From: Hufsiella ginkgonis
GTDB lineage: Bacteria > Bacteroidota > Bacteroidia > Sphingobacteriales > Sphingobacteriaceae
NCBI RefSeq assembly: GCF_009834915.1
Contig: NZ_WVHS01000002.1
Location: 806,001-870,000, forward strand
Length of the DNA: 64,000 nucleotides
Direction of reading: 5' to 3'
The notes under the pieces are model-generated. The model did not search any database. It saw nothing but the letters and a program-made list of their open reading frames with translations, and had not been told where the DNA came from. Shown in pieces: positions 46,791-59,397 of the stretch. The position numbers and the translations under genes are program-made. How positions within the stretch are numbered: the stretch's first letter is position 1; each line of letters starts with the position of its first letter.

Positions 46791-47387
46791 CTATTTCTTT
46801 TTAGGAGCGCGCCTAAAGGGATTAACCCGCTTTAAAAAGTCCGCCACACTATTTTTAGGAACAAAAGACTTCCCGTTTTTATAACGGGTAACCACCACCG
46901 AATCTGCCACGTATTTACGCACTTTCCCGTTCAATTTATCGTTGCGGTATGTCCCTTGTTCCAGCAATTTCCCGGCTGGATCGTACACAAAATAATCCCC
47001 GTATTTTGCACCTGTACGCCATCGTTCGCGGCTTTTTAGTTTACCATCGGCCGACCAGGCCAACCATTCACCGTGCTTGAGACCATTTTTAAAGCTGCCT
47101 TTCTCTTTAAGGTCCTTGCTAAGGTAATATTCCGTATAATTTCCATCGAGCAGTTTCCCGCTAAATCCGCCCTGCGTGGTACGGATCCGGTTGGCCGAAT
47201 ACCAATGATAAGTCTTCCCAGGCCTGGCAATAAAATTGTTTTTAGGGTTGCTAACCCCGGCGGTGACCGTATAGTCGGGGTAATTTACCGTTATCTTATC
47301 ATTCAGCAACGCTTTATACTCCCCGGCACGCTGTGCATACACCGGCGCGCACAAAATACTTAACACAAACAGGTAAATAATTTTCAT
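46791..47387 (-). CDS. YwqK/MORN-like repeat protein at the end of the secretion operon
   Basis: Start at ATG 47387 (MKIIYLFVLSILCAPVYAQ, a signal peptide); the codon two before is TTG. 198 residues. Repeats of the YwqK/MORN type appear from about residue 75: GNYTEYYLSKDLKEKGSFKNGLKHGEWLAWSADGKLKSRERWRTGAKYG and KLLEQGTYRNDKLNGKVRKY. A basic tail ends RRAPKKK. Databases often name such proteins YwqK antitoxin, but there is no toxin here. It begins 2 bp after the GspC-like stop, so it is coupled to the secretion genes. Confidence 0.78.
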   Translation of the reverse strand: MKIIYLFVLSILCAPVYAQRAGEYKALLNDKITVNYPDYTVTAGVSNPKNNFIARPGKTYHWYSANRIRTTQGGFSGKLLDGNYTEYYLSKDLKEKGSFKNGLKHGEWLAWSADGKLKSRERWRTGAKYGDYFVYDPAGKLLEQGTYRNDKLNGKVRKYVADSVVVTRYKNGKSFVPKNSVADFLKRVNPFRRAPKKK

Positions 47388-47389
47388 CC

Positions 47390-47875
47390 TCAATTCAGTT
47401 TAATGAACATAGTTTTCCCCTGGTAGCTAACCTGGAGCGAGTCCTTCAGGTTCTTAAGCAGCTTAAGTCCATCTATCGTTTGACCTTCGGAAACCATCTG
47501 TTCTTTGTTATTCATAATGATAATGGCAGAGATCTTTTTCGTCTCGGGGCTGGTGGCGTAACCCAGATATCTTACCTGGGGTGCCGGCATCGTGGGCGCT
47601 TGTATGGGCGGCGGACCTTGCCTGCTCGAAGGCGCTGCCGGGACGATTACTTGCTCCTGGCGATATTTGTCGCCGGCAAAAGGATCGCGGTAGTTTAATA
47701 CCAGGCTAACGGTATCCATTATCTTATAGCGACGGAGAGGCTCTTTGGCTTTCACCGCCATGCGAAGGGGTATAGCCTCTTCATTTCCCGTAGCGCTGAT
47801 CACCCGGTAGATGATCATTCCCCACAGGGCGATCACAACCACGATTAACCAATAAGTAGTCGCTTTTGACTTCAT
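47390..47875 (-). CDS. GspC/PilP-like inner-membrane protein of the secretion system
   Basis: 161 residues: one N-terminal membrane helix (YWLIVVVIALWGMIIYRVI), a linker with NYRDPFAG reminiscent of the PF-motif before PilP domains, a Pro-rich stretch, and a small beta domain. That domain (VRYLGYATSPETKKISAIII... MVSEGQTIDGLKLLKNLKDSLQVSY) fits the HR/PilP fold that contacts the secretin. No PDZ domain. Function inferred from fold pattern and operon position. Confidence 0.65.
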   Translation of the reverse strand: MKSKATTYWLIVVVIALWGMIIYRVISATGNEEAIPLRMAVKAKEPLRRYKIMDTVSLVLNYRDPFAGDKYRQEQVIVPAAPSSRQGPPPIQAPTMPAPQVRYLGYATSPETKKISAIIIMNNKEQMVSEGQTIDGLKLLKNLKDSLQVSYQGKTMFIKLN

Positions 47876-47882
47876 CCCCGGC

Positions 47883-48836
47883 TTACTGGATGGTAAAACC
47901 TCTTACCGCACTGTATGCTCCCCTGTTCCCGGCTTCGTCTATCGCCCTCACTTTCCAGTAAAGCTTGCCTGTTGCCGCCGATTCGTTGAAGGAATAGGAA
48001 GTACCGTTCAGTGTTACCGGGAATGCGGAACTGTAAGGCGTCGCCGAATCGCTTTTCATGACCACCAGCTCATAGCTTTTTGTACCCGTTACAACGGCCC
48101 ACTGGAGCGAAACGGGTTTCGGCAGCACCTTATTGTCATCAGGAAGTGTTAAGGCCACGGTAGCCGGTGCAAGCTGATCGGATACGATTTTGTAGATATC
48201 AGACCATTTGGACTGTTCCGTATCGTTCTCAGCCCTTACACGCCAGTATTGTATTTTGTTGGCAGACAACGGCACGGTATACCCGAGATTGGGTGTGGTG
48301 GCATTAAACACCAGTTTCGACTCGTCGGCAAAATTATTCGTATCCACCTGCAGCCGGTAACGGGTAGAACCATACAGTTTCGACCACGAATACGTAGCAT
48401 CGGCCTGGTTGGTAAGCGTATTATTGGCGGGGAGGGCCAGTATTACCTGCTGCTCCTTGATAGACGAGCGGTAGATCCTGAACCCACGCGTAGCATAGGC
48501 GGTATGGCTGCTGCCGTTTTCGGCCCGTACGCGCCATTCGTAAAGCCCGGGATCGAGGATAACGCGGAACTGCTCGCTCCCGGAGATCAGCGTATCAAGC
48601 ACCAGTTTTGCCGGCGAGCCGAAGGATGGCGTAACTACCTGGAACCGGTACGACAACGCATATTCTACCTCGTCCCACCAGAAGTTCTGCATATATTCAC
48701 CGCTTTCGTACTGGTCGGCAGGCGCCAGCAGGGTCACCTGCTTTTCAGCCACCGACGGCTCAATAAATTCGGTACAGGCATATAGCTGTGCCATAAGCAA
48801 GAAACCGCAAATGATCCTGGTGTGATGATGCTTCAT
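47883..48836 (-). CDS. Lipoprotein with three fibronectin-III-like domains
   Basis: 317 residues. A lipobox ends the signal peptide (MAQLYAC, lipidated Cys21). Three similar ~95-residue modules follow, each starting with a L-PA-D/N pattern (VTLLAPADQYESG, VILALPANNTLTNQ, VALTLPDDNKVLPK), with Trp-centred strands (NFWWDEVEYALSYRFQV; YSWSKLYGSTRYRLQV; LQWAVVTGTKSYELVV) and closing W-RVRA segments. Similar modules occur in surface-exposed FN3 proteins. It is located inside the secretion operon (4-bp overlap upstream, 7-bp gap downstream), so it is a candidate outer-membrane pilotin, structural partner or surface cofactor. Confidence 0.75.
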   Translation of the reverse strand: MKHHHTRIICGFLLMAQLYACTEFIEPSVAEKQVTLLAPADQYESGEYMQNFWWDEVEYALSYRFQVVTPSFGSPAKLVLDTLISGSEQFRVILDPGLYEWRVRAENGSSHTAYATRGFRIYRSSIKEQQVILALPANNTLTNQADATYSWSKLYGSTRYRLQVDTNNFADESKLVFNATTPNLGYTVPLSANKIQYWRVRAENDTEQSKWSDIYKIVSDQLAPATVALTLPDDNKVLPKPVSLQWAVVTGTKSYELVVMKSDSATPYSSAFPVTLNGTSYSFNESAATGKLYWKVRAIDEAGNRGAYSAVRGFTIQ

Positions 48837-49375
48837 TTTTTGATATTTTTTATCGCCCTAAAACTTACTTCCATTACCGGCTGACCACTTTCCTGCAGCC
48901 CCGGTTGCCTTACCGATTTAATAGACACCGTGCTGATCATCCCCATGTGCTTTACACGGGCCAAGGTATCCAGCAAAACCACCAGTGTGCGGTAGCCGGC
49001 CTTCATCCTGATGCTTTGTGTCAGCACTGTTTTTACGCTATCGTCTTCCGCGGATCTCCTCGCCGGTTCATACATGATCTCTGCTTTTTTACGGGCGGCG
49101 ATCCCCGAGGTTGTTAGCCAAAACTCATTGCTCCAGCCCAGGGAATCTACCCGGTAATTCGCCAGCAGCAGGTCGATCTCCTGCAGGTTCCTGCGCATAT
49201 AAGCGGGGTTGTCCTGCAGGTTTTCCTGCTCGTTCAATTGTTTCTCCAGTTGCATGTTTAACGAGAGGGCGTTCACCGTGTTCCGGATGGCCAGGTTCCA
49301 GGCTACCAGCAGGAACACCGCCGCCCCGGCTACCAATAACCGGTTCTTGTTTTTAAAAGAGAGCTTGGTCGTCAT
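48833..49375 (-). CDS. GspM/PilO-like inner-membrane protein
   Basis: Start at ATG 49375, 2 bp after the GspL-like stop; an alternative TTG start at 49381 would overlap it. 180 residues: one membrane helix (RLLVAGAAVFLLVAWNLAI), a coiled coil (LEKQLNEQENLQDNPAYMRRNLQEIDLLLANY), then a ferredoxin-like alpha/beta region (MKAGYRTLVVLLDTLARVKHMGMISTVSIKS... MEVSFRAI). This layout is that of GspM and PilO, which pair with GspL or PilN under the secretin. Confidence 0.72.
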   Translation of the reverse strand: MTTKLSFKNKNRLLVAGAAVFLLVAWNLAIRNTVNALSLNMQLEKQLNEQENLQDNPAYMRRNLQEIDLLLANYRVDSLGWSNEFWLTTSGIAARKKAEIMYEPARRSAEDDSVKTVLTQSIRMKAGYRTLVVLLDTLARVKHMGMISTVSIKSVRQPGLQESGQPVMEVSFRAIKNIKK

Positions 49376-49377
49376 AC

Positions 49378-50592
49378 TCAATAACTGAGGCTTAGCGAAA
49401 ACTGTTTCTCTTCCGGGTCGTCTGCTGATGGCGCGTATTGCAGTAAACTAACCTCTTTCACCCAGCTTTTTTGTTTTAACAGGTAGATCCACTCGTTTAC
49501 CGGTTCTATCCCGGTGGCTGACCCCACGATGCGCACCCGGCCGATCTCCGTTTCCCCGGCCTGCACCCCTCCAATAAAGGTTTTGCTTACCGGGTTTATA
49601 GACAATTCCGTAAGCGTAATGCCGCGGGCCACCGTTTGCCCCACCTGGTCGCAGATAAACGCGTAACTGGTGCCGCCGTTCCAGCCAAGGTCATGCAGCA
49701 GGCGCTCTTTGCTCCGCATTTCGCCGGCGAGCCTCCGCACCAGGCTTTCATTGTCAGAACCCAGCGTTACGCGGCCTGCCAGTTCGGTATTACGGGTGTG
49801 GTACGTGCTAAAAACGATAAAATTAACCAGCAGGATCACAAAGAAAACCACCACCGTAGCGGCAAACCGGAACCTGAACTTCTTCCCCTCCCTGAATTCG
49901 TCCAGTACCTTCAGCATCGCCGGGTCCTGCGTTACCACCGGGACGAGGTAGTTATACAGTACCAGCTGAAAGGCGGTGGCATAGGCGATGATCAGCCGGT
50001 CGTCCAGCACCTCGCGATCGATCTTTAACGGGTATTCGGCGGTAACGCCGGGCTCATACCGGTAACTTTCCCACGTTTCCTTATCCGTTGAGATAATGCG
50101 GTGTCCATCGAAATCAATTTCAGCACCGTACGAGTTAAACTGCTTCAGTACATGCGCAACCGGGAACACGCCCAGGCTTAGGCTAAGCACCATGAGCCCT
50201 GCTTGCCGCAGTTGTGTGGTAATCGCCTCTGCCACCTCCCTGCGCACCAGCGAAACATACACCTGGTCCCCCGTTACGAACTGCTGTATGCAGAAGTTTG
50301 CCGGGTCCAGGTTCGGGAACAGGTGATGTATATGATCGCCGCCCGTACCGGACGCCTGCCTGGTAAGCACCCCTTTACCTGTTAAGGTAATGGCCACCGG
50401 CAATTCCACGGGGAGCTTTTTAATAATGGCGGGAATACTGCCGTCGAAGATCTCCTTGCTGGTGATGTCCAGCTGCCCTTTGCGGGCCGATACCTGCACG
50501 GCCCTTACGCTGTACGATTGGTCTGGAAGAATATGCACTTCCAGTCCCGTACAGGCGTTAAGCCATTGGTATTGGTTGAACCATCCGGCCAT
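49378..50592 (-). CDS. GspL-like (PilM plus PilN) assembly protein
   Basis: 404 residues. The first ~240 residues are cytoplasmic with an actin-like/PilM-type pattern (AVQVSARKGQLDITSKEIFDG; LIIAYATAFQLVLYN). One membrane helix lies near 244-264 (FAATVVVFFVILLVNFIVFS), followed by a periplasmic coiled coil and a small ferredoxin-like domain (GITLTELSINPVSKTFIGG... VRIVGSATGIEPVNEWIYLLKQKSWVKEVSLLQ) typical of PilN/GspL. It would connect the GspE ATPase to the GspM-like partner encoded next. Confidence 0.72.
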   Translation of the reverse strand: MAGWFNQYQWLNACTGLEVHILPDQSYSVRAVQVSARKGQLDITSKEIFDGSIPAIIKKLPVELPVAITLTGKGVLTRQASGTGGDHIHHLFPNLDPANFCIQQFVTGDQVYVSLVRREVAEAITTQLRQAGLMVLSLSLGVFPVAHVLKQFNSYGAEIDFDGHRIISTDKETWESYRYEPGVTAEYPLKIDREVLDDRLIIAYATAFQLVLYNYLVPVVTQDPAMLKVLDEFREGKKFRFRFAATVVVFFVILLVNFIVFSTYHTRNTELAGRVTLGSDNESLVRRLAGEMRSKERLLHDLGWNGGTSYAFICDQVGQTVARGITLTELSINPVSKTFIGGVQAGETEIGRVRIVGSATGIEPVNEWIYLLKQKSWVKEVSLLQYAPSADDPEEKQFSLSLSY

Positions 50593-50594
50593 GG

Positions 50595-52541
50595 CTAGTT
50601 ATAAACGATGATCGGTTTGATAAACACCAGCGTAACCACCTTACTGGTAGTTTTTTCCCGGCTGCTAAAGAGCCATTTTATCACCGGGATGCGGGATAAG
50701 AACGGTACACCCGATCCCGAGTCGCTGTTTTCCGTACGCTCCAATCCCCCGAGCACGATCATGTCCTCGTTCCTGGCGCGGATAATGGATTCGAACTTGC
50801 TGTTAGAAGTGGGCGGCGGGGCATTCTCCGGCGGATTGCCGATAAAGTCAGAAATGTCTACTTTAATGTTGAGCGTCACCTGGTCGTCGCCGGAAACGAT
50901 CGGGCGTATGTTGATCACCAGGTTGGCCTTGGCCTCGATGAACTGCTCGGTAACCACGGTTTGAGTGGTGAGCGAGGGGATCACGTTCTGTGTCTTTTGG
51001 CTATAGTAGCGCGTGCTCCCGATAGAAAGCGACGCGGCATGACCGTTCAGCGTGGACAGCTTGGGAATAGACCTTACTTCTACGTTGTTGTTCTGCTCGA
51101 GCGCGCTCAGCCTTACGTAAAAGTTAGGCGTCACCCTGCCGATATTGATGGAACTGTTTCGGCCGAGCCGCGACAAGAAATCGTTAATAGAAGCCGCACC
51201 GAACGTGTAATCAAGGCCCGGCATCACGGTACCCCCGGTTTTAACGCTGTCAGACACGCCTGCGGAAATCCCGGTTTTAACACCGTGGCCTTTACGTACA
51301 TCCAGGAGCGTTACTTCTATGAGCACCATCGGCACCAGCCGGTCAATCTGTTTAATGTAATTTTCGATCTCGGTGATCTGCGGCGACGAGCCCGATAACA
51401 GCAGGGTATTCTGTTCCTTGAACTCCTTAATTTCCACGCCCCGTTTCCACTCGGTAGGTATCATGGCCAGGATGGTGTCCATCGACCGGTTCTGCAGCTG
51501 CACCACGCGGTTGGTGCGCAATCCTTCCAACCGCCGCTCGCCGATCAGGTAGATCCCGTTTTCCTTTTTATATGTATACTCGGTTGCCTGGAATAGCGAG
51601 CTGAGAAAGTTCTCATAGCTGATATCGGTTACTTTGGTAGTAATATTCCCCCGGATTTCGGAATAAATAAAATAATTTGCCCCCACCTCCTGCGATGCAC
51701 CTCTTACCAGGTCGATCACCGGCGTATTGGTGGCATCGGCGCTGATGGTTTTTCCCTGTGGCCCTGTCCGGCTGAAAAGGCTGTAAGTCCCGGGACCTGC
51801 AGCGCCTCCCGGCCCCGCGTTCACCTGCCTCGGCGTACGCCTCACCGAAGTATTGCGGTCGCCGTCGATGAACAGTTCCTCGCCATTCTCCAGCGACTGG
51901 AAAACATACACGTTATCGCTGGTACGCGTAAGCTTCAGGTTATTCGCATAAGCGAGTTTTTCCAGTGCCGTTTCAAAAGGCGCCTCGCTGAAAAAGCCGC
52001 TTACCCTGGCGTTAAGCAGCGCCTGCGGCACTACTACGTTCTTTTGCGACAACTGGGTGATCTTACGTGCCACCTGCGAGAGCGTATCATTGCTGACTTC
52101 CAGGCTAAGCGTATTGTTTTGCGCGTTATAGCGTGCGTTTATATCACGGGGCACTACCAGCGGGCGCTGTAGCGGCGGCCGCGTTACGGATATGATGGAC
52201 CCGGTAAGGTTCATATCAAGGTCGAACTCCTTCACCAGGAACAAGAGCACGTTCAGCGCGGTCTCATTCGTAAAGTTATTGTACACCTTAAAGCTCACCT
52301 GCGGATCGACATTGATGTTCAGGTTATTCGATTGGGCCAGCGCCCGCAGGAACTCCTGTGCAGAAGCGCCCGACACCGCCAGCTGCACCCGCTGGTTGAG
52401 ACCGGGCACGGTGATGGCGAGGTTACGCAACCGCTCATCAACCAGGCGAAGGCGCTCTGCACGTGCATCGCCCTGCGCAAACAGGTACTGCACCTGGAAC
52501 ACTGAGACAAAGAAAAATACCAGCAGTAAGACTTTTTTCAT
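50595..52541 (-). CDS. gspD: Secretin (GspD/PilQ family outer-membrane channel)
   Basis: 648 residues: signal peptide (VLLLVFFFVSVFQVQYLFAQ), an STN-like N-domain (about 50-110, LAQSNNLNINVDPQVSFKVYNN), two further N-domains with the usual DTILAMIPTEWKRGVEIKEFKEQNTLLLSGSSPQITEIENYIKQID, and the C-terminal secretin domain (about 410-648: IEVTLLDVRKGHGVKTG, VRSIPKLSTLNGHAASLSIGS, MIVLGGLERTENSDSGSGVPFLSRIPVIKWLF). It forms the multimeric outer-membrane pore. It ends KPIIVYN with no S-domain, so a separate pilotin would be needed. Confidence 0.93.
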   Translation of the reverse strand: MKKVLLLVFFFVSVFQVQYLFAQGDARAERLRLVDERLRNLAITVPGLNQRVQLAVSGASAQEFLRALAQSNNLNINVDPQVSFKVYNNFTNETALNVLLFLVKEFDLDMNLTGSIISVTRPPLQRPLVVPRDINARYNAQNNTLSLEVSNDTLSQVARKITQLSQKNVVVPQALLNARVSGFFSEAPFETALEKLAYANNLKLTRTSDNVYVFQSLENGEELFIDGDRNTSVRRTPRQVNAGPGGAAGPGTYSLFSRTGPQGKTISADATNTPVIDLVRGASQEVGANYFIYSEIRGNITTKVTDISYENFLSSLFQATEYTYKKENGIYLIGERRLEGLRTNRVVQLQNRSMDTILAMIPTEWKRGVEIKEFKEQNTLLLSGSSPQITEIENYIKQIDRLVPMVLIEVTLLDVRKGHGVKTGISAGVSDSVKTGGTVMPGLDYTFGAASINDFLSRLGRNSSINIGRVTPNFYVRLSALEQNNNVEVRSIPKLSTLNGHAASLSIGSTRYYSQKTQNVIPSLTTQTVVTEQFIEAKANLVINIRPIVSGDDQVTLNIKVDISDFIGNPPENAPPPTSNSKFESIIRARNEDMIVLGGLERTENSDSGSGVPFLSRIPVIKWLFSSREKTTSKVVTLVFIKPIIVYN

Positions 52542-52577: not shown

Positions 52578-54011
52578 TTAGTAGTTAAATAGTAGAGGAT
52601 ATATCTCCTCGATAGACGTATGCCCGGAGGCAAAAAGCCCGAATGCGTTCTCGGCCAGCGTTTTAATCCCGCGCTCCTTTAGCATGGAATCAATATACAT
52701 ATTTCCCTGCTTTATTTGCATAGCTAGCTCGTGGTCTACGGGGATCACCTCGTACACCGCCTTGCGCCCGCTGTAACCGGTATAGTAACAATGCTCGCAG
52801 CCCCGGGCCACCGAATGGCTGCTAACCGGGAAATAGGGAACGAACTGCCCCGGGTAAAGGTCGTTGGTAAACGGCGTCTCCTGTTTACAATGGATACACA
52901 ACAACCGCAACAGCCGTTGTGCAACGGTGGTATTCAGCGTATTGGCCACCAGGAAGCCCGGGATCCCCATGTCAGTAAGCCTGGAGACCGTTCCCCACGC
53001 CGAGTTGGTATGTATGGTCGATAACACCAGGTGCCCCGTAAGCGCTGCCCGGATCGCCATATTCGCCGTCTCAGGGTCCCTGATCTCGCCTACCATGATC
53101 ACATCCGGGTCCTGCCGCAGGAAAGTCCGCAACGCGGAAGCAAAGCTCAGGCCGATATTTTCTTTTAACTGTACCTGGTTGATCCCTTCAAGCGTATACT
53201 CGATCGGGTCTTCGATGGTAAGAATGTTGCGGGTTTCTTTATTGAGGTGCTTCAGCGTGGCGTACAGCGTAGTGGTTTTACCCGACCCCGTAGGCCCGCT
53301 GATAAGCAGTATCCCGTTTGGCCGCTTTATGCCCTGGTGATAGTTTGCCAGGTCGAACGCCGAGAAACCCACCCTCTCCAGGTCGATGTTGGCCGCATTG
53401 TTGTTCAACAAGCGGAGTACCATTTTTTCGCCATGCAGCGTCGGCAGTACCGATACGCGGATGTCGAACTTCTCGCCGTTCCCCTCAAACAGCAAACGAC
53501 CGTCCTGCGGGAGCCGCTTCTCGGCAATATCCAGGTTCGACTGGATCTTGATCTTATTGATCAGGGCCGGGTATTCCAGTTTGTTAAGCAGGTAGCGCTC
53601 CACGAGCATCCCATCTATACGGATCCGTACGCGGCAGCGGCTCTCATAGATCTCGAGATGAATGTCGCTGCTTTTAAGGCTCCTGGCTTCGCGGATCAGC
53701 GTATTCAGGAAATCCTTTCCGTCGGCCGGCAGCGACTGTTTGGCACTTGTTTCCGATTCTTTGGCGCTATAATAGAACGTGTTCAGCAGCCGGGAGATCG
53801 CCTCCGCCGGTAACGGCTCCATGATGGCCGTTTTCCCGAGGATCACTTCGAGCTCTGCCTGCAGCGCGGAGATGTCTGATGAGTCGTCGCAAAAAAACAC
53901 GATACCTGCTCCCGTTTCCTCTTTGGGCAGGATGCGGTAATGGCGCGCCTGTTCTTTACTGAGAATATGCAGGGTGCTTTTGGGGATATCTATGACTTCA
54001 TGGCGGTTCAT
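52578..54011 (-). CDS. gspE: GspE/PilB family secretion ATPase
   Basis: Start at ATG 54011 (MNRHEVIDIP), giving a 4-bp ATGA overlap with the peptidase gene; a longer frame to 54056 would overlap by 49 bp. 477 residues. Walker A is ISGPTGSGKTTTLYATL, the Asp box DIHLEIYESRCRVRIRIDG, Walker B VIMVGEIRDPETANMAIRAALTGH, and the His box LSTIHTNSAWGTVSRL. The zinc tetracysteine (CIHC...CEHC) before GYSGRKAVYEV is intact. It is a hexameric cytoplasmic motor powering pseudopilus assembly. Confidence 0.95.
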   Translation of the reverse strand: MNRHEVIDIPKSTLHILSKEQARHYRILPKEETGAGIVFFCDDSSDISALQAELEVILGKTAIMEPLPAEAISRLLNTFYYSAKESETSAKQSLPADGKDFLNTLIREARSLKSSDIHLEIYESRCRVRIRIDGMLVERYLLNKLEYPALINKIKIQSNLDIAEKRLPQDGRLLFEGNGEKFDIRVSVLPTLHGEKMVLRLLNNNAANIDLERVGFSAFDLANYHQGIKRPNGILLISGPTGSGKTTTLYATLKHLNKETRNILTIEDPIEYTLEGINQVQLKENIGLSFASALRTFLRQDPDVIMVGEIRDPETANMAIRAALTGHLVLSTIHTNSAWGTVSRLTDMGIPGFLVANTLNTTVAQRLLRLLCIHCKQETPFTNDLYPGQFVPYFPVSSHSVARGCEHCYYTGYSGRKAVYEVIPVDHELAMQIKQGNMYIDSMLKERGIKTLAENAFGLFASGHTSIEEIYPLLFNY

Positions 54012-54520
54012 GGCTGCAGGAACGAAATGATTAAGCTGTCGTCGAAAGGGCTCCATTTAAATGCCCAGCAAACCGAAAGCAGGCCCAGCAACAGGATCGA
54101 CTGGATGCCGGCGAGCGGGACCTTCCAGCTTCCGCCCGACTTCGCCAGGAATGGCAGCGAAACCGCCAGGGTAACTACCAGGCTCGCCATATAATAAACC
54201 ACGTAGTTGACCGGGGGAAAGTAAAAAGCCACGCAAACCAGGAAAAGTATATCGCCCCAGCCGAGATAGCCATCGGTGATCCATACCCATTTTTTCTCCC
54301 GATACGAAAACCAGGCGCTCAGCACCAGCAGCTGTATGCTCACAAAGGAGAGGTTTACCGAAATATTAAACAGCAGCGTGCCGGTTGTTTGCCCGCGATA
54401 CGCATCAGTAAGCAGCAACGCAAGCAAAACCGGGAACAAGAGCCAGTAAACCGCCCTGGAGCGCAGGTCCTGGATAAAAATAAACAGGAGGCAAACCGTT
54501 AACCATATACTGATCAGCAT
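54008..54520 (-). CDS. Prepilin peptidase (A24 family), minimal form
   Basis: 170 residues with about six membrane helices. Both catalytic aspartates of the A24 family are in place: the first in FIQDLRSRAVYWLLFP, the second in the GxGD-type motif YLGWGDILFLV. The N-terminal methyltransferase/zinc domain of PilD and GspO is absent. It would cleave the leader peptides of the pseudopilins encoded around it. The start shares its first base with the end of the gspG stop. Confidence 0.78.
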   Translation of the reverse strand: MLISIWLTVCLLFIFIQDLRSRAVYWLLFPVLLALLLTDAYRGQTTGTLLFNISVNLSFVSIQLLVLSAWFSYREKKWVWITDGYLGWGDILFLVCVAFYFPPVNYVVYYMASLVVTLAVSLPFLAKSGGSWKVPLAGIQSILLLGLLSVCWAFKWSPFDDSLIISFLQP

Positions 54521-54936
54521 TAGTCGGGGGTTACTTCTTTCAGATTCTTATCCTGGTCGATCTCCCAAACGTTAAAAATGCCGTTCCCGTTAAAGTCGGT
54601 TACCGCCGTGGCACGACCTACGAAGGTGGACGCGCCTGACTGGATCACTTCGATCCGGTAGTTGGCTTTTCCGTCTTTTCCGTCGGTGGTTAACTTTTCC
54701 TGTATAAAGCCGATGGCGCTGAGGTCGTTCGTGTATTTCGAATTTTCGAAGAAATAATTACGCTCCATCATATGGAGGTGCTCCAGCTGAAGCTTGGCCT
54801 CGGTGCTTTTTGCCCTGGTGATAAGCGGCAGCAAATTGGGCAGCGCCAGCAGCACCAGGATGCCGATAATAACCAATACCACCAGGATCTCTGTCAGCGT
54901 GTATGCGGGTAATTTCTTTTTGATGATGGATTTCAT
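54520..54936 (-). CDS. gspG: Major pseudopilin GspG-like protein
   Basis: 138 residues. Class III-type leader KKKLPA, then YTLTEILVVLVIIGILVLLALP with Glu at +5; the residue before the cleavage site is Ala instead of Gly. The globular part has NYFFENSKYTNDLSAIGF, and the C-terminus has an EF-hand-like Asp-x-Asn-x-Asn-Gly loop (DFNGNGIFNVWEIDQDKN). GspG of classical T2SS binds calcium at its C-terminus. The pseudopilus rod would be built from this subunit. Confidence 0.9.
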   Translation of the reverse strand: MKSIIKKKLPAYTLTEILVVLVIIGILVLLALPNLLPLITRAKSTEAKLQLEHLHMMERNYFFENSKYTNDLSAIGFIQEKLTTDGKDGKANYRIEVIQSGASTFVGRATAVTDFNGNGIFNVWEIDQDKNLKEVTPD

Positions 54937-55009
54937 GATGGGGTTGTTGCCTGCACTAAATTAACAACTCAAATGTGATTTCAAAGTGTGGAAAACAGGG
55001 GGAAATGAA

Positions 55010-56146
55010 TTAGAAACTGTTACTTAATTGAAACATAGGTAAATACATCGCGATCAGGATTACGCCTACCACGATACCCAATAGGATGATGATTAATGGC
55101 TCCAATACGGTACTGATCGTTTGAGTGCGGTACTCAATTTCCTCCGTGTATTGCTCCGCTATCTTCTCAAAAAAATGTTCGAGGCGGTTCACTTCTTCAC
55201 CCACCCTGATCAGCTGGATCAAACGCGGCGGGTAAAAGCCAAATTGCGAGAGGCTTTGGTGCAGCGACTCGCCCCGCATGATATCCTGCTCTACCCTGGC
55301 GAGCGACGATTCTACCGGGTAAAACGGGATCATTTGCCGCACCAGCCCGATGGCACGCAGCAACGGCGTATTGGTACCTACCAGCAACCGCATGGTATTG
55401 GCGAAACGCGCCAGGTAGATTTTACGCACGATCTCGCCTACCACGGGCACCCGCAGTACCAGCTTCGCCGATGTTTTTCGCAGCCATGGCTTTTCCTTAG
55501 CGGCGAACAGGAATCCCGCGGCGATTAGCAGGAACAGGATCGCGTAGAGCGACCAGGCATCGATAAAGCCCGAGATCCGGATGATCAGGGCCGTGATCCA
55601 CGGAAGCTTTCCGCCAAAGCGGAGGAATACATCGCCGAACATCGGCACTACAAATTTCATCATAAAAAAAACGGCGCCAAACGAGGTGCACAACACAATG
55701 AGCGGGTATGTTACCGCGCTGATCACCTTGCGCCGCTGCCTGATCTTGCTTTTGAAGTAGGCCGCCAAACCGGCAAGTACCTCGCCGAGCTTTCCAGTTT
55801 CTTCGCCGATGCGGATGCTGTAATACTCATAGTCGCCGAACTTCCCCGCCGCCTTAATAGCGTCTGAAAGCGCGCTTCCCGACTCGATACCCGATTTGAT
55901 CATGCTAAACATCTTCTTGTCTTTCCCGGAGGCCTCGTCCGTTACGATCAGTTCGAATGCCATCCGGAGGTCTATGCCCGACAACAGCAACATACTGAGC
56001 CCGGCATAAAACGCCTCTTTCCTGCGGTCGGGAAGATCGCTCCCGCCAAAGCTAATGTCGCGGTTAAGCACTTCAGCCCAGTTAACCTTACCAGGCCCAG
56101 GCTTGGCTTTAGGCGCTTTATATTGTGACAGGTCGATAGAAGGCAT
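55010..56146 (-). CDS. gspF: GspF/PilC family inner-membrane platform protein
   Basis: Start at ATG 56146 (MPSIDLSQYK); the codon two before is TTG. 378 residues. Two GspF domains (about 45-165 and 245-365) with FYAGLSMLLLSGIDLRMAFE, IRIGEETGKLGEVLAGLAAYF in the first and FANTMRLLVGTNTPLLRAIG, IRVGEEVNRLEHFFEKIAEQY in the second. Three membrane helices, the last at the C-terminus (LEPLIIILLGIVVGVILIAMYLPMF). It anchors the ATPase and extracts pseudopilins. Confidence 0.95.
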   Translation of the reverse strand: MPSIDLSQYKAPKAKPGPGKVNWAEVLNRDISFGGSDLPDRRKEAFYAGLSMLLLSGIDLRMAFELIVTDEASGKDKKMFSMIKSGIESGSALSDAIKAAGKFGDYEYYSIRIGEETGKLGEVLAGLAAYFKSKIRQRRKVISAVTYPLIVLCTSFGAVFFMMKFVVPMFGDVFLRFGGKLPWITALIIRISGFIDAWSLYAILFLLIAAGFLFAAKEKPWLRKTSAKLVLRVPVVGEIVRKIYLARFANTMRLLVGTNTPLLRAIGLVRQMIPFYPVESSLARVEQDIMRGESLHQSLSQFGFYPPRLIQLIRVGEEVNRLEHFFEKIAEQYTEEIEYRTQTISTVLEPLIIILLGIVVGVILIAMYLPMFQLSNSF

Positions 56147-56185
56147 ATACAATGATAACGAATACCGGTGTTTCTAAAGGCAGCC

Positions 56186-56665
56186 TTATTCGAAAAGTTG
56201 CGAGGCGCCGTAACGTTTCTGATAAATTAACGGCACCAGTCTTCCTTCCAGGTTAATGACGAACGAAATATGGTCGGCTTTCTGGCCTTCGCCAGCCGGC
56301 GCACGCTCGAAAGTTAATTCGGGACTTGTTGCCTGCACCCGGATGGTATCGGTTTTTAAGCCATATTGACTGCGCAGTATGTATTGAGGCTGAAAGACGT
56401 ATTCGATCTCCCCGGCGGTGGTTTGCAGCCTGATGCCGGTCGCGGTGCCCATTACCAGGCTGGCGTCGCGTACATCCCTGCCGAGTACGTTATCGGCAAG
56501 CAGGAATTCGGCAACCCGCGCATTAAGCCCGCTATACCGGGCGTAATACCCGTTAACCACCGTAAAAGCCAGGTAAGCAATAGAGATCACGATTGCCGAC
56601 AACAGCATGGCGACGGTTACCTCCAGGATGGTGAATGCCGGGGCTTTTTTATTGACCATGCTCAT
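56186..56665 (-). CDS. GspJ-like minor pseudopilin
   Basis: 159 residues: leader NKKAPA, then FTILEVTVAMLLSAIVISIAYLAF with Glu +5, again Ala at -1. The globular part is a beta-rich region with NVLGRDVRDASLVMG and EIEYVFQPQYILRSQYGLKTDTIRVQA, resembling GspJ/PilW minor pilins. It overlaps the GspI-like gene by 17 bp. Confidence 0.78.
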   Translation of the reverse strand: MSMVNKKAPAFTILEVTVAMLLSAIVISIAYLAFTVVNGYYARYSGLNARVAEFLLADNVLGRDVRDASLVMGTATGIRLQTTAGEIEYVFQPQYILRSQYGLKTDTIRVQATSPELTFERAPAGEGQKADHISFVINLEGRLVPLIYQKRYGASQLFE

Positions 56666-57011
56666 GTATGTTAATCAGCGCTTTGCTCACGCCCAACACC
56701 CTTCCGCGCTGCGTGGCGGTAACGGTCACCAATAACACGTCGCGGCTGTTCCGGTAAGGAGCTACCACCCTGTTATACCGGATACTGTCGGCAACGGTAT
56801 CGAGGTCCCCGGGCTGCGGTATTTCACGGCACAGGGCGATCAGCCGACGCATCTGCCGGTTCGCCTGCTGGCTGCCGGCCGAAGGCCCGGAACCGGTAAC
56901 CCGCGTAAAAATACCGATCGCCAGGCTGAATACCACCATGATGATCACCATGGCCACCAACACTTCCACCAGGGTAGCCGCAGCTATTTTCTTACCCGCT
57001 ACCGCACCCAT
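56649..57011 (-). CDS. GspI-like minor pseudopilin
   Basis: 120 residues: leader GKKIAA, then ATLVEVLVAMVIIMVVFSLAIGIF with Glu +5 and Ala at -1. A short globular part follows with ANRQMRRLIALCREIPQPG and RDVLLVTVTATQRGRVLGVSKA. Short length and second position in the minor-pilin block fit GspI. It overlaps the preceding gene by 13 bp. Confidence 0.75.
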   Translation of the reverse strand: MGAVAGKKIAAATLVEVLVAMVIIMVVFSLAIGIFTRVTGSGPSAGSQQANRQMRRLIALCREIPQPGDLDTVADSIRYNRVVAPYRNSRDVLLVTVTATQRGRVLGVSKALINIHEHGQ

Positions 57012-58243
57012 TGCAGTATCTCCCTTTCTTCCGCTTCATTGCTGAATATGGACGATGATAAATAATATTTGCTCCTTGCCGTGCGATCGATGGTGATATC
57101 GATGAGGAAGTTCTCATAAAGCGTAGCCGGCGTTTGCATGATAAAACGAATGCACGACACCTTCCCGTGTATGGTTACCGGTGCCTGCATTTTCAGGTAA
57201 CCCGTAGCATAGATCTCACCTTTAATGTGGCTTTGCTTGCCGATGCTGATGATGGTTTGCAGCGCGGTGCGGTTGTCTTCGCGCGATAAAAGAATACCTG
57301 CGAAGCGGGTGTCTTCGCCAAGGGATATCTTCGGCTGGATGTTGCTGTCGCCAGCCTTAACGATGGCCATGACCGAAGGATAGTTAAACACGCATCCCCT
57401 GGCGCTCACGATGGAATCGCGCGCAAACAGCTGGCAATTCCCCTTGAATCCTTCTTCAATGACGATAGACCTCGCATAAATGACCACATCCTTTAAGAGC
57501 GTATTTCCGGGGATGGTGAGCACCGTATCCGAATAAATGCTTACCCTGCCCGAAATCACCTTGCTGCTGATCCTGGTTTGCGACTTGTCGAGATGAACTT
57601 CCAGCCCCGGGTTAAAAAAAGACCGGAAAACCGAATCCGGCAAATTGCCGGTAACCACCTCTTTATCAGCCGGCGACAACTTCGACCTGATAACGCCCAG
57701 CCGCTCTTCATTTAACGCGGGCAGGGTACGTTTGCTGTCGGATATCTTACCATAGATCAGCTCCGTCCCGGTGTACGGTCTTCCATCGGCGTAAGACTGG
57801 CGCACGCCTGACTTGGGCACTTGCGCCGACCCCGTGATCCGGGTGCTCCCGCTCACGGATAGCGGGCGGTCTTCATCCGAAAGAAACAGCGCTACCTGGT
57901 CTGCAGCCGTGATTGTACCCGTTAAGAATGCCTCCTTAACCGTATCTGCTTGCGCAAAAGCTTTAACTGAACATACATCGAACAGCCCCCAGGCTGATTT
58001 CTGGAGGACCACGCTGTCCGTTCCCTCGTCGAACAGGTCCAGCCGCTGGAAATCCGTCACCTTCGCATCGCGCGACAACAGCAGTGCCCGTCCTGATTCG
58101 GCGTTCATGCGCAAGCGGTTCATCCGTTTGCTTTTTTGTGAGGCCGACCGGTAAAAGAACGCGATGCTGATGAGCGAGGCCGATAAAATGGCGATGATCA
58201 GCGAAATGATCAATACGATGTATAAGGAAGACGCTTTTAACAT
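56999..58243 (-). CDS. GspK-like protein with a beta-helix domain
   Basis: Start at ATG 58243; an in-frame codon at 58291 would put a non-typical leader in front. 414 residues beginning MLKASSLYIVLIISLIIAIL: a short basic leader with Ala before a long hydrophobic helix. Glu +5 is missing, as in GspK. The body lacks the GspK fold pattern. Residues about 235-370 look like a right-handed beta-helix (SIYSDTVLTIPGNTLLKDVVIYAR; HIKGEIYATGYLKMQAPVTI, HGKVSC), recalling bactofilins. First gene of the secretion operon; the tip-complex role is inferred. Confidence 0.6.
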   Translation of the reverse strand: MLKASSLYIVLIISLIIAILSASLISIAFFYRSASQKSKRMNRLRMNAESGRALLLSRDAKVTDFQRLDLFDEGTDSVVLQKSAWGLFDVCSVKAFAQADTVKEAFLTGTITAADQVALFLSDEDRPLSVSGSTRITGSAQVPKSGVRQSYADGRPYTGTELIYGKISDSKRTLPALNEERLGVIRSKLSPADKEVVTGNLPDSVFRSFFNPGLEVHLDKSQTRISSKVISGRVSIYSDTVLTIPGNTLLKDVVIYARSIVIEEGFKGNCQLFARDSIVSARGCVFNYPSVMAIVKAGDSNIQPKISLGEDTRFAGILLSREDNRTALQTIISIGKQSHIKGEIYATGYLKMQAPVTIHGKVSCIRFIMQTPATLYENFLIDITIDRTARSKYYLSSSIFSNEAEEREILQWVR

Positions 58244-58431: not shown

Positions 58432-59397
58432 ATGCTTCCCGACATCCTGACCGCCAGTACCGCTACCATTCTCCGCGATCCCGGGAACTATAACCGGCTA
58501 TTCGACCAGCTGCACGAGCTTCACCAGTTTTATGCCTCGCTTAGCGGGATCTCTGCGGGCGAGCCTTCCGGGGAAGATATCGACCTCCCATGGGGAAAAG
58601 CCATCGGCCCTGCCGGGGCGGCACAATGCCTGCTCGAGCTTGCACGCACCACCAAATTTGTGCGGGGGGTTCACCAGGCCATCCTGCAGCAGCAGGCGCG
58701 TTACCCCGGCAAAAAGATCGGCATCTTTTATGCAGGCTGCGGCCCGTACGCGGCGCTGCTCACACCCATGACCACCGTGTTCAGTGCCGGGGAACTGAGC
58801 TTTACCCTTATGGATATTAACGCCGCTTCGCTTGCTGCGGTCCAAAAACTGTACGGACAGCTGGCGCTGGAAGCGTACGTAAAAGAATATATCCTTGATG
58901 ATGCCGTAACTTACCGGTTGCGGGATCCCGATGCTATACACCTGGTAATTTCGGAAACCATGAACCAGGCGTTAACCAAAGAACCGCAGGTACAGATCAT
59001 GCAAAACCTGGTGCCGCAATTGGACAGCAATACGGTCTTTATACCACAAGCGATCAGCATCACTGCAAAACTCACCAGCAGCGAAGCCGAATATGCGGCC
59101 GCACAAACAGGGAGCATGGCTGAAAGGATCGGCCTTGGAACGGTCTACGCCATCAGCCGGCAAACGCCCTTTCCACACACAGAACAAACGATCCGGGTCC
59201 CCGACACGGTGGGCGATTTCACCATGCTTAGCCTGTTTACCGATATTTTGGTTTTTGGAAATGAAATGATCTCCACCAACGAATCTAACCTGACCGTTCC
59301 CATGAGGATTTGCGATACGGAGGGACTGGAAGGCCGCGAGATCAGGTTCAATTATGTAACGGGCACAGATCCGCATTTTGAAAGTTTCCTCAAATAG
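58432..59397 (+). CDS. SAM-dependent methyltransferase-like protein
   Basis: 321 residues, soluble. Residues about 97-110 (IGIFYAGCGPYAALLTP) match the glycine-rich SAM-binding motif I, with acidic motif II in LMDINAASLAAVQ. Later DAIHLVISETMNQALTKEPQ resembles the double-E region of protein arginine methyltransferase-like folds, and the C-terminal third is beta-rich. The substrate is unknown. It is divergent from the secretion operon, 188 bp away, with no evidence of shared function. Confidence 0.7.
   Translation: MLPDILTASTATILRDPGNYNRLFDQLHELHQFYASLSGISAGEPSGEDIDLPWGKAIGPAGAAQCLLELARTTKFVRGVHQAILQQQARYPGKKIGIFYAGCGPYAALLTPMTTVFSAGELSFTLMDINAASLAAVQKLYGQLALEAYVKEYILDDAVTYRLRDPDAIHLVISETMNQALTKEPQVQIMQNLVPQLDSNTVFIPQAISITAKLTSSEAEYAAAQTGSMAERIGLGTVYAISRQTPFPHTEQTIRVPDTVGDFTMLSLFTDILVFGNEMISTNESNLTVPMRICDTEGLEGREIRFNYVTGTDPHFESFLK

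Follow-up and report, generated by a model that had tools for sequence, protein, structure and literature searches.

The prepilin peptidases PilD and GspO (PulO, ComC) share an A24 core with two catalytic Asp residues and cleave class III signal peptides. Peptidases without a methylase domain are described in PMC10191384, where TadV is reported to lack that domain and FlaK to consist of the peptidase domain alone. In the type IVc pilus (T4cP) systems with TadV/FppA and in the FlaK systems, the partners are Flp pilins and archaellins. Bacteroidetes systems have been grouped with the type IVa pili (T4aP), apart from other type II secretion systems (T2SS), in PMC6668835. The putative T2SS of Cytophaga hutchinsonii and other Bacteroidetes clusters genes for a secretin, an ATPase, an A24 peptidase, GspG, GspF, minor pseudopilins and PilN/M/O-like proteins, and CHU_3197 was assigned as T2S-O on the basis of its A24 domain (PMC5553014). 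The clusters are given there as chu_3191-3202 in C. hutchinsonii and Fjoh_0611-0622 in Flavobacterium johnsoniae. The words 'glycine' and 'alanine' have 0 occurrences in the main text of PMC5553014, and its passages considered here are silent on a missing methylase domain and on the -1 residue of the leaders. In the open-access literature, mostly at listing level, we recognised no report of a methylase-less peptidase in a Bacteroidetes T2SS. Here we describe a cluster of this kind in a window of 64,000 nt from Hufsiella ginkgonis (contig NZ_WVHS01000002.1, positions 806,001 to 870,000), in which a short A24 peptidase stands beside T2SS-type pseudopilins rather than Flp pilins or archaellins.

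Our results make it probable that this minimal A24 enzyme cuts its pre-pseudopilins after a small residue, that the resulting N-termini are most likely unmethylated, and that the Ala found at -1 is not caused by the absence of the methyltransferase domain. The peptidase and the four pilin-type proteins are as follows.

56999..58243, - strand: GspK-position minor pilin of 414 aa, ATG at 58243; leader MLKA↓SSLYI (Ala at -1), Glu5 absent
56649..57011, - strand: minor pseudopilin; leader GKKIAA↓ATLVE (Ala at -1); PF07963 at 21.1 bits against a cut-off of 21.2, and at 23 bits in the genome search
56186..56665, - strand: minor pseudopilin; leader NKKAPA↓FTILE (Ala at -1); PF07963 at 22.0 bits, above the cut-off
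54520..54936, - strand: major pseudopilin, GspG-like; leader KKKLPA↓YTLTE (Ala at -1); PF07963 at 22.1 bits, above the cut-off; TIGR01710 at E 1.2e-9, below its own
54008..54520, - strand: short A24 prepilin peptidase of 170 aa; D18 and D90 (GWGD); methyltransferase domain absent

Ala occupies the -1 position in 4/4 pilin-type leaders of the cluster when they are read on the - strand, in agreement with the first-pass annotation, which had reported it for all pseudopilins. The cleavage register is fixed by Glu at +5 in three of them (GspG and the pilins at 56186 and 56649), and that of the GspK-position leader is backed by homologues from outside the class, DESG↓YALP (L198) and KEHG↓SALS (L203). 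A basic leader, a small residue at -1 and a following hydrophobic stretch, as expected of class III signal peptides, are present in 4/4. A PF07963 search of the genome (E 10) gave three matches, every one inside this cluster. Cutting by a type I signal peptidase at the A-x-A-like leaders (LPA, APA, IAA) was ruled out on established knowledge, as the site precedes the hydrophobic stretch. Among the 53 systems of the class in which at least three leaders were read, all-Ala is the commonest state (26 systems); thus the all-Ala state of the window is real, yet not unusual there.

The model of the GspK-position protein (predicted local distance difference test score, pLDDT, 91.9) combines a long helix at the N-terminus with a large head rich in beta structure. 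In the PDB it is best matched by ice-binding proteins (E 7.6e-4) and by ComZ, the competence pilin of Thermus (E 1.8e-3; template-modelling score, TM, 0.28), and the protein may be a tip pilin. Bactofilin matches below the cut-off were found in 6/8 of its homologues scanned, and the window protein gave E 0.17.

The peptidase has the features of the A24 family, namely two catalytic Asp residues, the second in GxGD, and a polytopic membrane core. All 58 relatives compared keep D18 and D90, and a six-helix structure is predicted with confidence (pLDDT 96; predicted TM score, pTM, 0.90). The enzyme scores 22.1 bits against PF01478, below the gathering score of 26.5, and that family is matched by 54/58 aligned members (E<=0.1). 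The domain that marks bifunctional PilD/GspO enzymes (PF06750/IPR010627) is missing: PF06750 has no match to the window peptidase and is listed for 0/58 aligned members. The first-pass annotation was therefore right about both Asp motifs and the lack of a methyltransferase/zinc domain. Unlike PilD/GspO, the window-type enzyme also lacks P-[N/D] after the first Asp and Lys after GxGD. In the genome (5.2 Mb, 99.99% complete), a profile search found PF06750 nowhere at the cut-off (best 13.7 of 23 bits). Searched with PF01478, the genome yielded two more hits, both weak and partial (38 positions each), and the frame of the better one (L002) was judged not to be a real gene. We judge the 170-aa enzyme to be the single credible A24 peptidase of this genome. 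Its gene overlaps GspG, whose stop codon ends in the A that opens the peptidase ATG; this synteny, together with the lack of a second credible A24, is the basis for the predicted pairing of the enzyme with the class III signal peptides. The best solved match to the peptidase model is FlaK, 3s0x (VIA Z 5.6, root-mean-square deviation 4.4, 136 aligned); for a helical bundle, such a Z perhaps reflects a common arrangement only. By Foldseek the same structure gave TM 0.54 and E 3.8, and the sequence profile gave E 2.2 for the FlaK type.

The same short enzyme is found across the class Bacteroidia. The comparison covered 102 class loci (the window, 99 loci fetched by GspE, and L169 and L170, which were retrieved around an A24 match), together with two loci of family f12 and, from the rest of the phylum, 17 stretches surrounding A24 genes, so that 120 loci were compared with the window. 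An earlier PF01478 scan of the phylum (44/296) missed the window peptidase; its tally was not used as evidence of absence, and the GspE searches replaced it. A short A24 gene was found in 96/102 class loci. GspG was also read in 95 class loci. Of their peptidase frames, 94 have a start codon, and in 93 of these no more than 45 residues separate the first Asp from the earliest start that is possible (median 19). In the exception, L157, the open frame is long and contains an ATG 18 residues ahead of the Asp, and PF06750 does not match it; the 95th frame, L119, has no start codon before the Asp. At the genome level, PF06750 was above the cut-off in 0/80 genomes (78 of the class and 2 of f12), compared with 8/14 control genomes.

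The surround of the active site has also changed. Pro at D+7, Asn or Asp at D+8 and Lys two residues after GxGD are present in 17/17 of the other A24 enzymes of the phylum and in 0/95 of the class enzymes. In the A24 tree, for which 25 of the 95 class enzymes were used, the class forms one branch (98, starred) with f12 adjoining it, apart from 26 longer and 2 TadV-like sequences. An origin of the short enzyme from TadV receives no support from this tree, in which the TadV-like sampling amounts to two sequences of one genome; these, L314 and L318 (the label is our own), branch separately and keep GxGDxK. The longer enzymes of the phylum are themselves mixed. PF06750 is matched by 7/17 (L196 in part, L197, L198, L199, L201, L202 and L207) and is unmatched in five f23 and five f17 enzymes, and the label 'full-length' for all 17 was dropped on this ground. 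In f23, the A24 enzymes of L200, L203, L204, L205 and L206 are 214 to 221 aa long, with 80 to 83 residues before the first Asp, and their N-terminal part is perhaps a diverged or reduced domain. We retain a short A24 lineage that spans the class, with an altered surround of the active site and a -1 site of small residues (Ala>Gly>Ser).

The residue at -1 was read with a pattern that left this position free and required Glu5, an upstream basic residue and a hydrophobic tail. GspG was read by hand in L122, L129, L135, L139 and L140, which lack Glu5, and in L198, where the pattern register was wrong. The K leaders of L134, L158, L160, L171, L186 and L199 were also read by hand, and those of L117 and L133, with the N-terminus outside the frame, were dropped. 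Minor-pilin leaders were counted if they had G, A or S at -1; 21 pattern hits in class loci with other -1 residues, which resembled pieces of A24 or GspF or unrelated frames, were dropped, as was one frame of L104 located 10 kb from the operon. L171 (f12) is outside the class counts, and since the minor pilins lie outside the fetched stretch in many loci, at least three leaders could be read in the 53 systems mentioned above.

In the class, GspG has Ala at -1 in 80 systems, Gly in 13 and Ser in 2 (n=95), and in the window's own family the counts are 40, 4 and 1 (n=45). All class leaders taken together gave Ala 186, Gly 48 and Ser 14 (n=248). Besides the all-Ala systems there are 3 all-Gly systems (L161, L162 and L164) and 24 mixed ones, of which 16 combine Ala and Gly, 7 Ala and Ser, and 1 Gly and Ser. 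The GspG residue changed at least 12 times on the GspE tree. Glu5 is replaced in 5/95 class GspG proteins, by Asp in L122, Gln in L129, L139 and L140, and Ser in L135; elsewhere, Glu5 is reported to be needed for filament assembly (PMC6497953; PMC4471445).

Published accounts differ on what is allowed at this position. According to PMC4471445, the leader outside archaea invariably ends in Gly, which is the textbook position on which the first-pass annotation relied when it stated that classical prepilins need Gly at -1. That statement is too strict: the last leader residue is given as Gly or Ala in PMC10191384 and as [GAS] in the motif of PMC3244431, and the G-1A variant of the S. sanguinis pilin PilE1 was processed and assembled normally by a bifunctional PilD (PMC6497953), so that Ala is tolerated there, as is predicted for the window cluster. 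The PilD of S. sanguinis has the methylase motif and the major pilins of this organism are methylated. G-1S was unprocessed there (PMC6497953), whereas 14/248 class leaders have Ser. Outside the class, Ser was found in 1/174 leaders (Fisher about 0.006, uncorrected for kinship and computed with 173 outside leaders, against a clean set of 174), and this difference hints at a wider -1 pocket in the class.

The first-pass annotation had gone further and proposed that Ala at -1 is matched to the loss of the methyltransferase domain, the two being mutually needed halves of one co-evolved pathway. A coarse co-occurrence does exist, as Ala is present in 186/248 leaders beside the short enzymes of the class and in 11/174 clean leaders of non-Bacteroidota GspE loci (Gly 160, three others; 56 of 73 loci). 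Among these 11 Ala leaders, at least one (L234) probably does not belong to a pilin. GspG next to the longer phylum enzymes has Gly in 11/11. However, this contrast comes down essentially to a single clade, and among the 11 longer enzymes the five of f23 (L200 and L203-L206) are without a PF06750 match as well. Inside the clade the proposed covariation breaks down, given the 13/95 Gly GspG, the three all-Gly systems and the 24/53 mixed systems. Within the family of the window itself, L104, L108, L191 and L192 combine Gly GspG with the same short peptidase, the very finding that the first-pass annotation had named as speaking against it. The f12 locus L171 pairs a short enzyme, unmatched by PF06750, with Gly in GspG and in two other pilin leaders, and Ala occurs in its K-like leader. 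The reverse case is the Limisphaerales locus L273 (genome G826, isolate bog_1402), with Ala in 4/4 leaders read. The sole A24 found in its genome, a metagenome-assembled genome (MAG) of 2.8 Mb with completeness unstated, is one frame with PF06750 (114.7 bits), PF01478, a C4 pair, IIPD and GLGDVKF; a long insertion separates its two Asp motifs. With Gly beside short enzymes and Ala beside a PF06750 enzyme, the two traits are separable in both directions. The harmless G-1A change in PilE1 also argues against mutual need, and we regard the co-evolved pathway as highly improbable. In our reading, the class-level correlation between Ala and the short enzyme is largely one historical event. Plausibly, the short enzyme arose before the split of f12 and the class, when Gly was still at -1, and Ala became common later in the class.

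The variant processing pathway suggested in the first-pass annotation thus loses its tie between Ala and the domain loss and keeps its other half. With no PF06750 domain at the cut-off in the peptidase or elsewhere in the genome, and no replacement at the Pfam cut-off, processing without N-methylation is the likeliest reading. Alternatively, a separate or highly diverged enzyme might methylate the pseudopilins, only the domain fusion having been lost, and such an enzyme could escape a profile search. The gene at 58432-59397 (+ strand), adjoining the cluster, resembles by eye a Rossmann-type S-adenosylmethionine (SAM) methyltransferase. Nevertheless, it gave no match in Pfam or NCBIfam at E 0.1 and a non-significant PDB match (E 0.48). 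It was rejected as a component of the system because it had a phmmer match in 0/120 of the other T2SS and A24 loci, so that it is not conserved with them. Given also that PF06750 was above the cut-off in none of the 80 genomes, a separate methylating enzyme appears improbable, though less so than the co-evolved pathway.

We therefore favor processing by the minimal A24 enzyme after a small residue, with pilins that are likely to be without N-methylation, as judged from sequence. The prepilins would lie in the membrane with the short basic leader on the cytoplasmic side. The A24 aspartyl protease, corresponding to the peptidase half of PilD/GspO, would cut on that side after the small -1 residue, Ala in this cluster, and GspE and GspF would drive the entry of the free N-termini (Tyr, Phe, Ala and Ser), most likely unmethylated, into the pseudopilus. 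The genes, the leaders and the Asp residues are read directly from the DNA, and cleavage by the short enzyme, the missing methylation and polymerisation by GspE and GspF are what knowledge of these families would predict. Ala appears to be one of several small -1 residues that the short lineage accepts.

Several points weigh against this reading. Both the cleavage site and the methylation state are predicted. The absence of the domain rests on one profile, and PF06750 misses the N-terminal parts of 10/17 longer phylum enzymes; the profile is thus not fully sensitive there, and for the class enzymes their short length is the stronger evidence that they lack the domain. Sub-cut-off matches to PF06750 occur in 22/80 genomes, the best at 21.3 of 23 bits (G663, with internal stop codons). 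In 6/102 class loci (L136, L137, L143, L153, L155 and L168) the fetched stretch showed no A24, whether short or long. The order of events derived from f12 rests on one locus with readable pilins, in which the K-like leader has Ala, and there are few outgroup loci. The GspE tree was made with FastTree, and the A24 tree is a quick one with weak inner support. Among the loci without a short A24, L143, L153 and L155 belong to family f85; GspE is present in these, no typical GspG was found nearby, and the cluster may be split or changed.

We also considered whether the residues around the first catalytic Asp are tuned to the one at -1, with Trp at D+8 (Trp26 in the window enzyme) for Ala and other residues, often Trp at D+10, for Gly or Ser. 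A scan of A24 columns against the GspG -1 residue in the 95 loci comprised 740 tests, 83 of them within D-8 to D+13, and the six best of the 740 all fell within that region. Trp at D+8 is present in 58/80 Ala systems and 2/15 Gly/Ser systems, and Trp at D+10 in 8/80 and 9/15, respectively. When traits were simulated on the GspE tree, the five best tests all fell in the Asp region in 0/600 simulations, and a p as low was reached there in 7/600. Against this, the D-8 to D+13 region was chosen after the data had been seen, and over all columns a minimum p as low was obtained in 34/450 tree simulations. Tests on independent pairs, which were too few (7 starred), did not reach significance (median p 0.5 to 0.63). 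In the held-out loci (n=25; L226 was dropped because it shares its contig with L150, and neither gene was obtained from L229), the lone Gly system, L340, has Trp at D+8. Of the 24 held-out Ala systems, 22 have Trp at D+8 and two (L224 and L227) do not. Because the held-out check contradicted it, the tuning of D+8 is kept only as a lead, not as a result, and at present we think it rather unlikely to be correct. A somewhat better but still doubtful prospect is the broader idea that Bacteroidia have their own methylation-free peptidase subfamily, with a rebuilt active-site surround and a broadened -1 pocket, in which leaders and Asp-side residues drift together. If it were true, the many natural switches between Gly, Ala and Ser could reveal how prepilin peptidases choose their cut site, and the filament would function without the methyl group.

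A class with T2SS-like pseudopili apparently built without the methylating domain is a natural experiment. As Ala at -1 is separable from the domain loss, the -1 residue is no predictor of methylation, which corrects a tempting inference.

The whole cluster is encoded by the - strand and extends from 58243 to about 46.8 kb. Its genes other than those of the peptidase and the pilins are as follows.

55010..56152, - strand: GspF/PilC-like inner-membrane platform protein (PF00482, E 5.1e-41)
52578..54056, - strand: GspE/PilB-like assembly ATPase (PF00437, E 3.1e-121)
50595..52541, - strand: secretin, GspD/PilQ-like (PF00263, E 4.5e-36)
49378..50592, - strand: PilN/GspL-like inner-membrane protein, a weak assignment (PF05137 at E 0.045, below the cut-off; phmmer match in 87/120 other loci)
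48833..49381, - strand: PilO/GspM-like protein, a weak assignment (NF040576 at E 0.016, below the cut-off; phmmer match in 64/120 other loci)
47883-48836, 47390-47875 and 46791-47393, - strand: three conserved cluster neighbours (phmmer matches in 75, 71 and 63 of 120 other loci, respectively)

Canonical T2SS marks were absent from the cluster proteins scanned, with no match for GspC and no T2SSK match for the GspK-position protein. The gene set of Bacteroidetes T2SS-like systems (D, E, F, G, minor pseudopilins, A24 and PilN/O-like) is present in this one cluster, which is the known T2SS-like (T4aP-related) pseudopilus system of Bacteroidetes.

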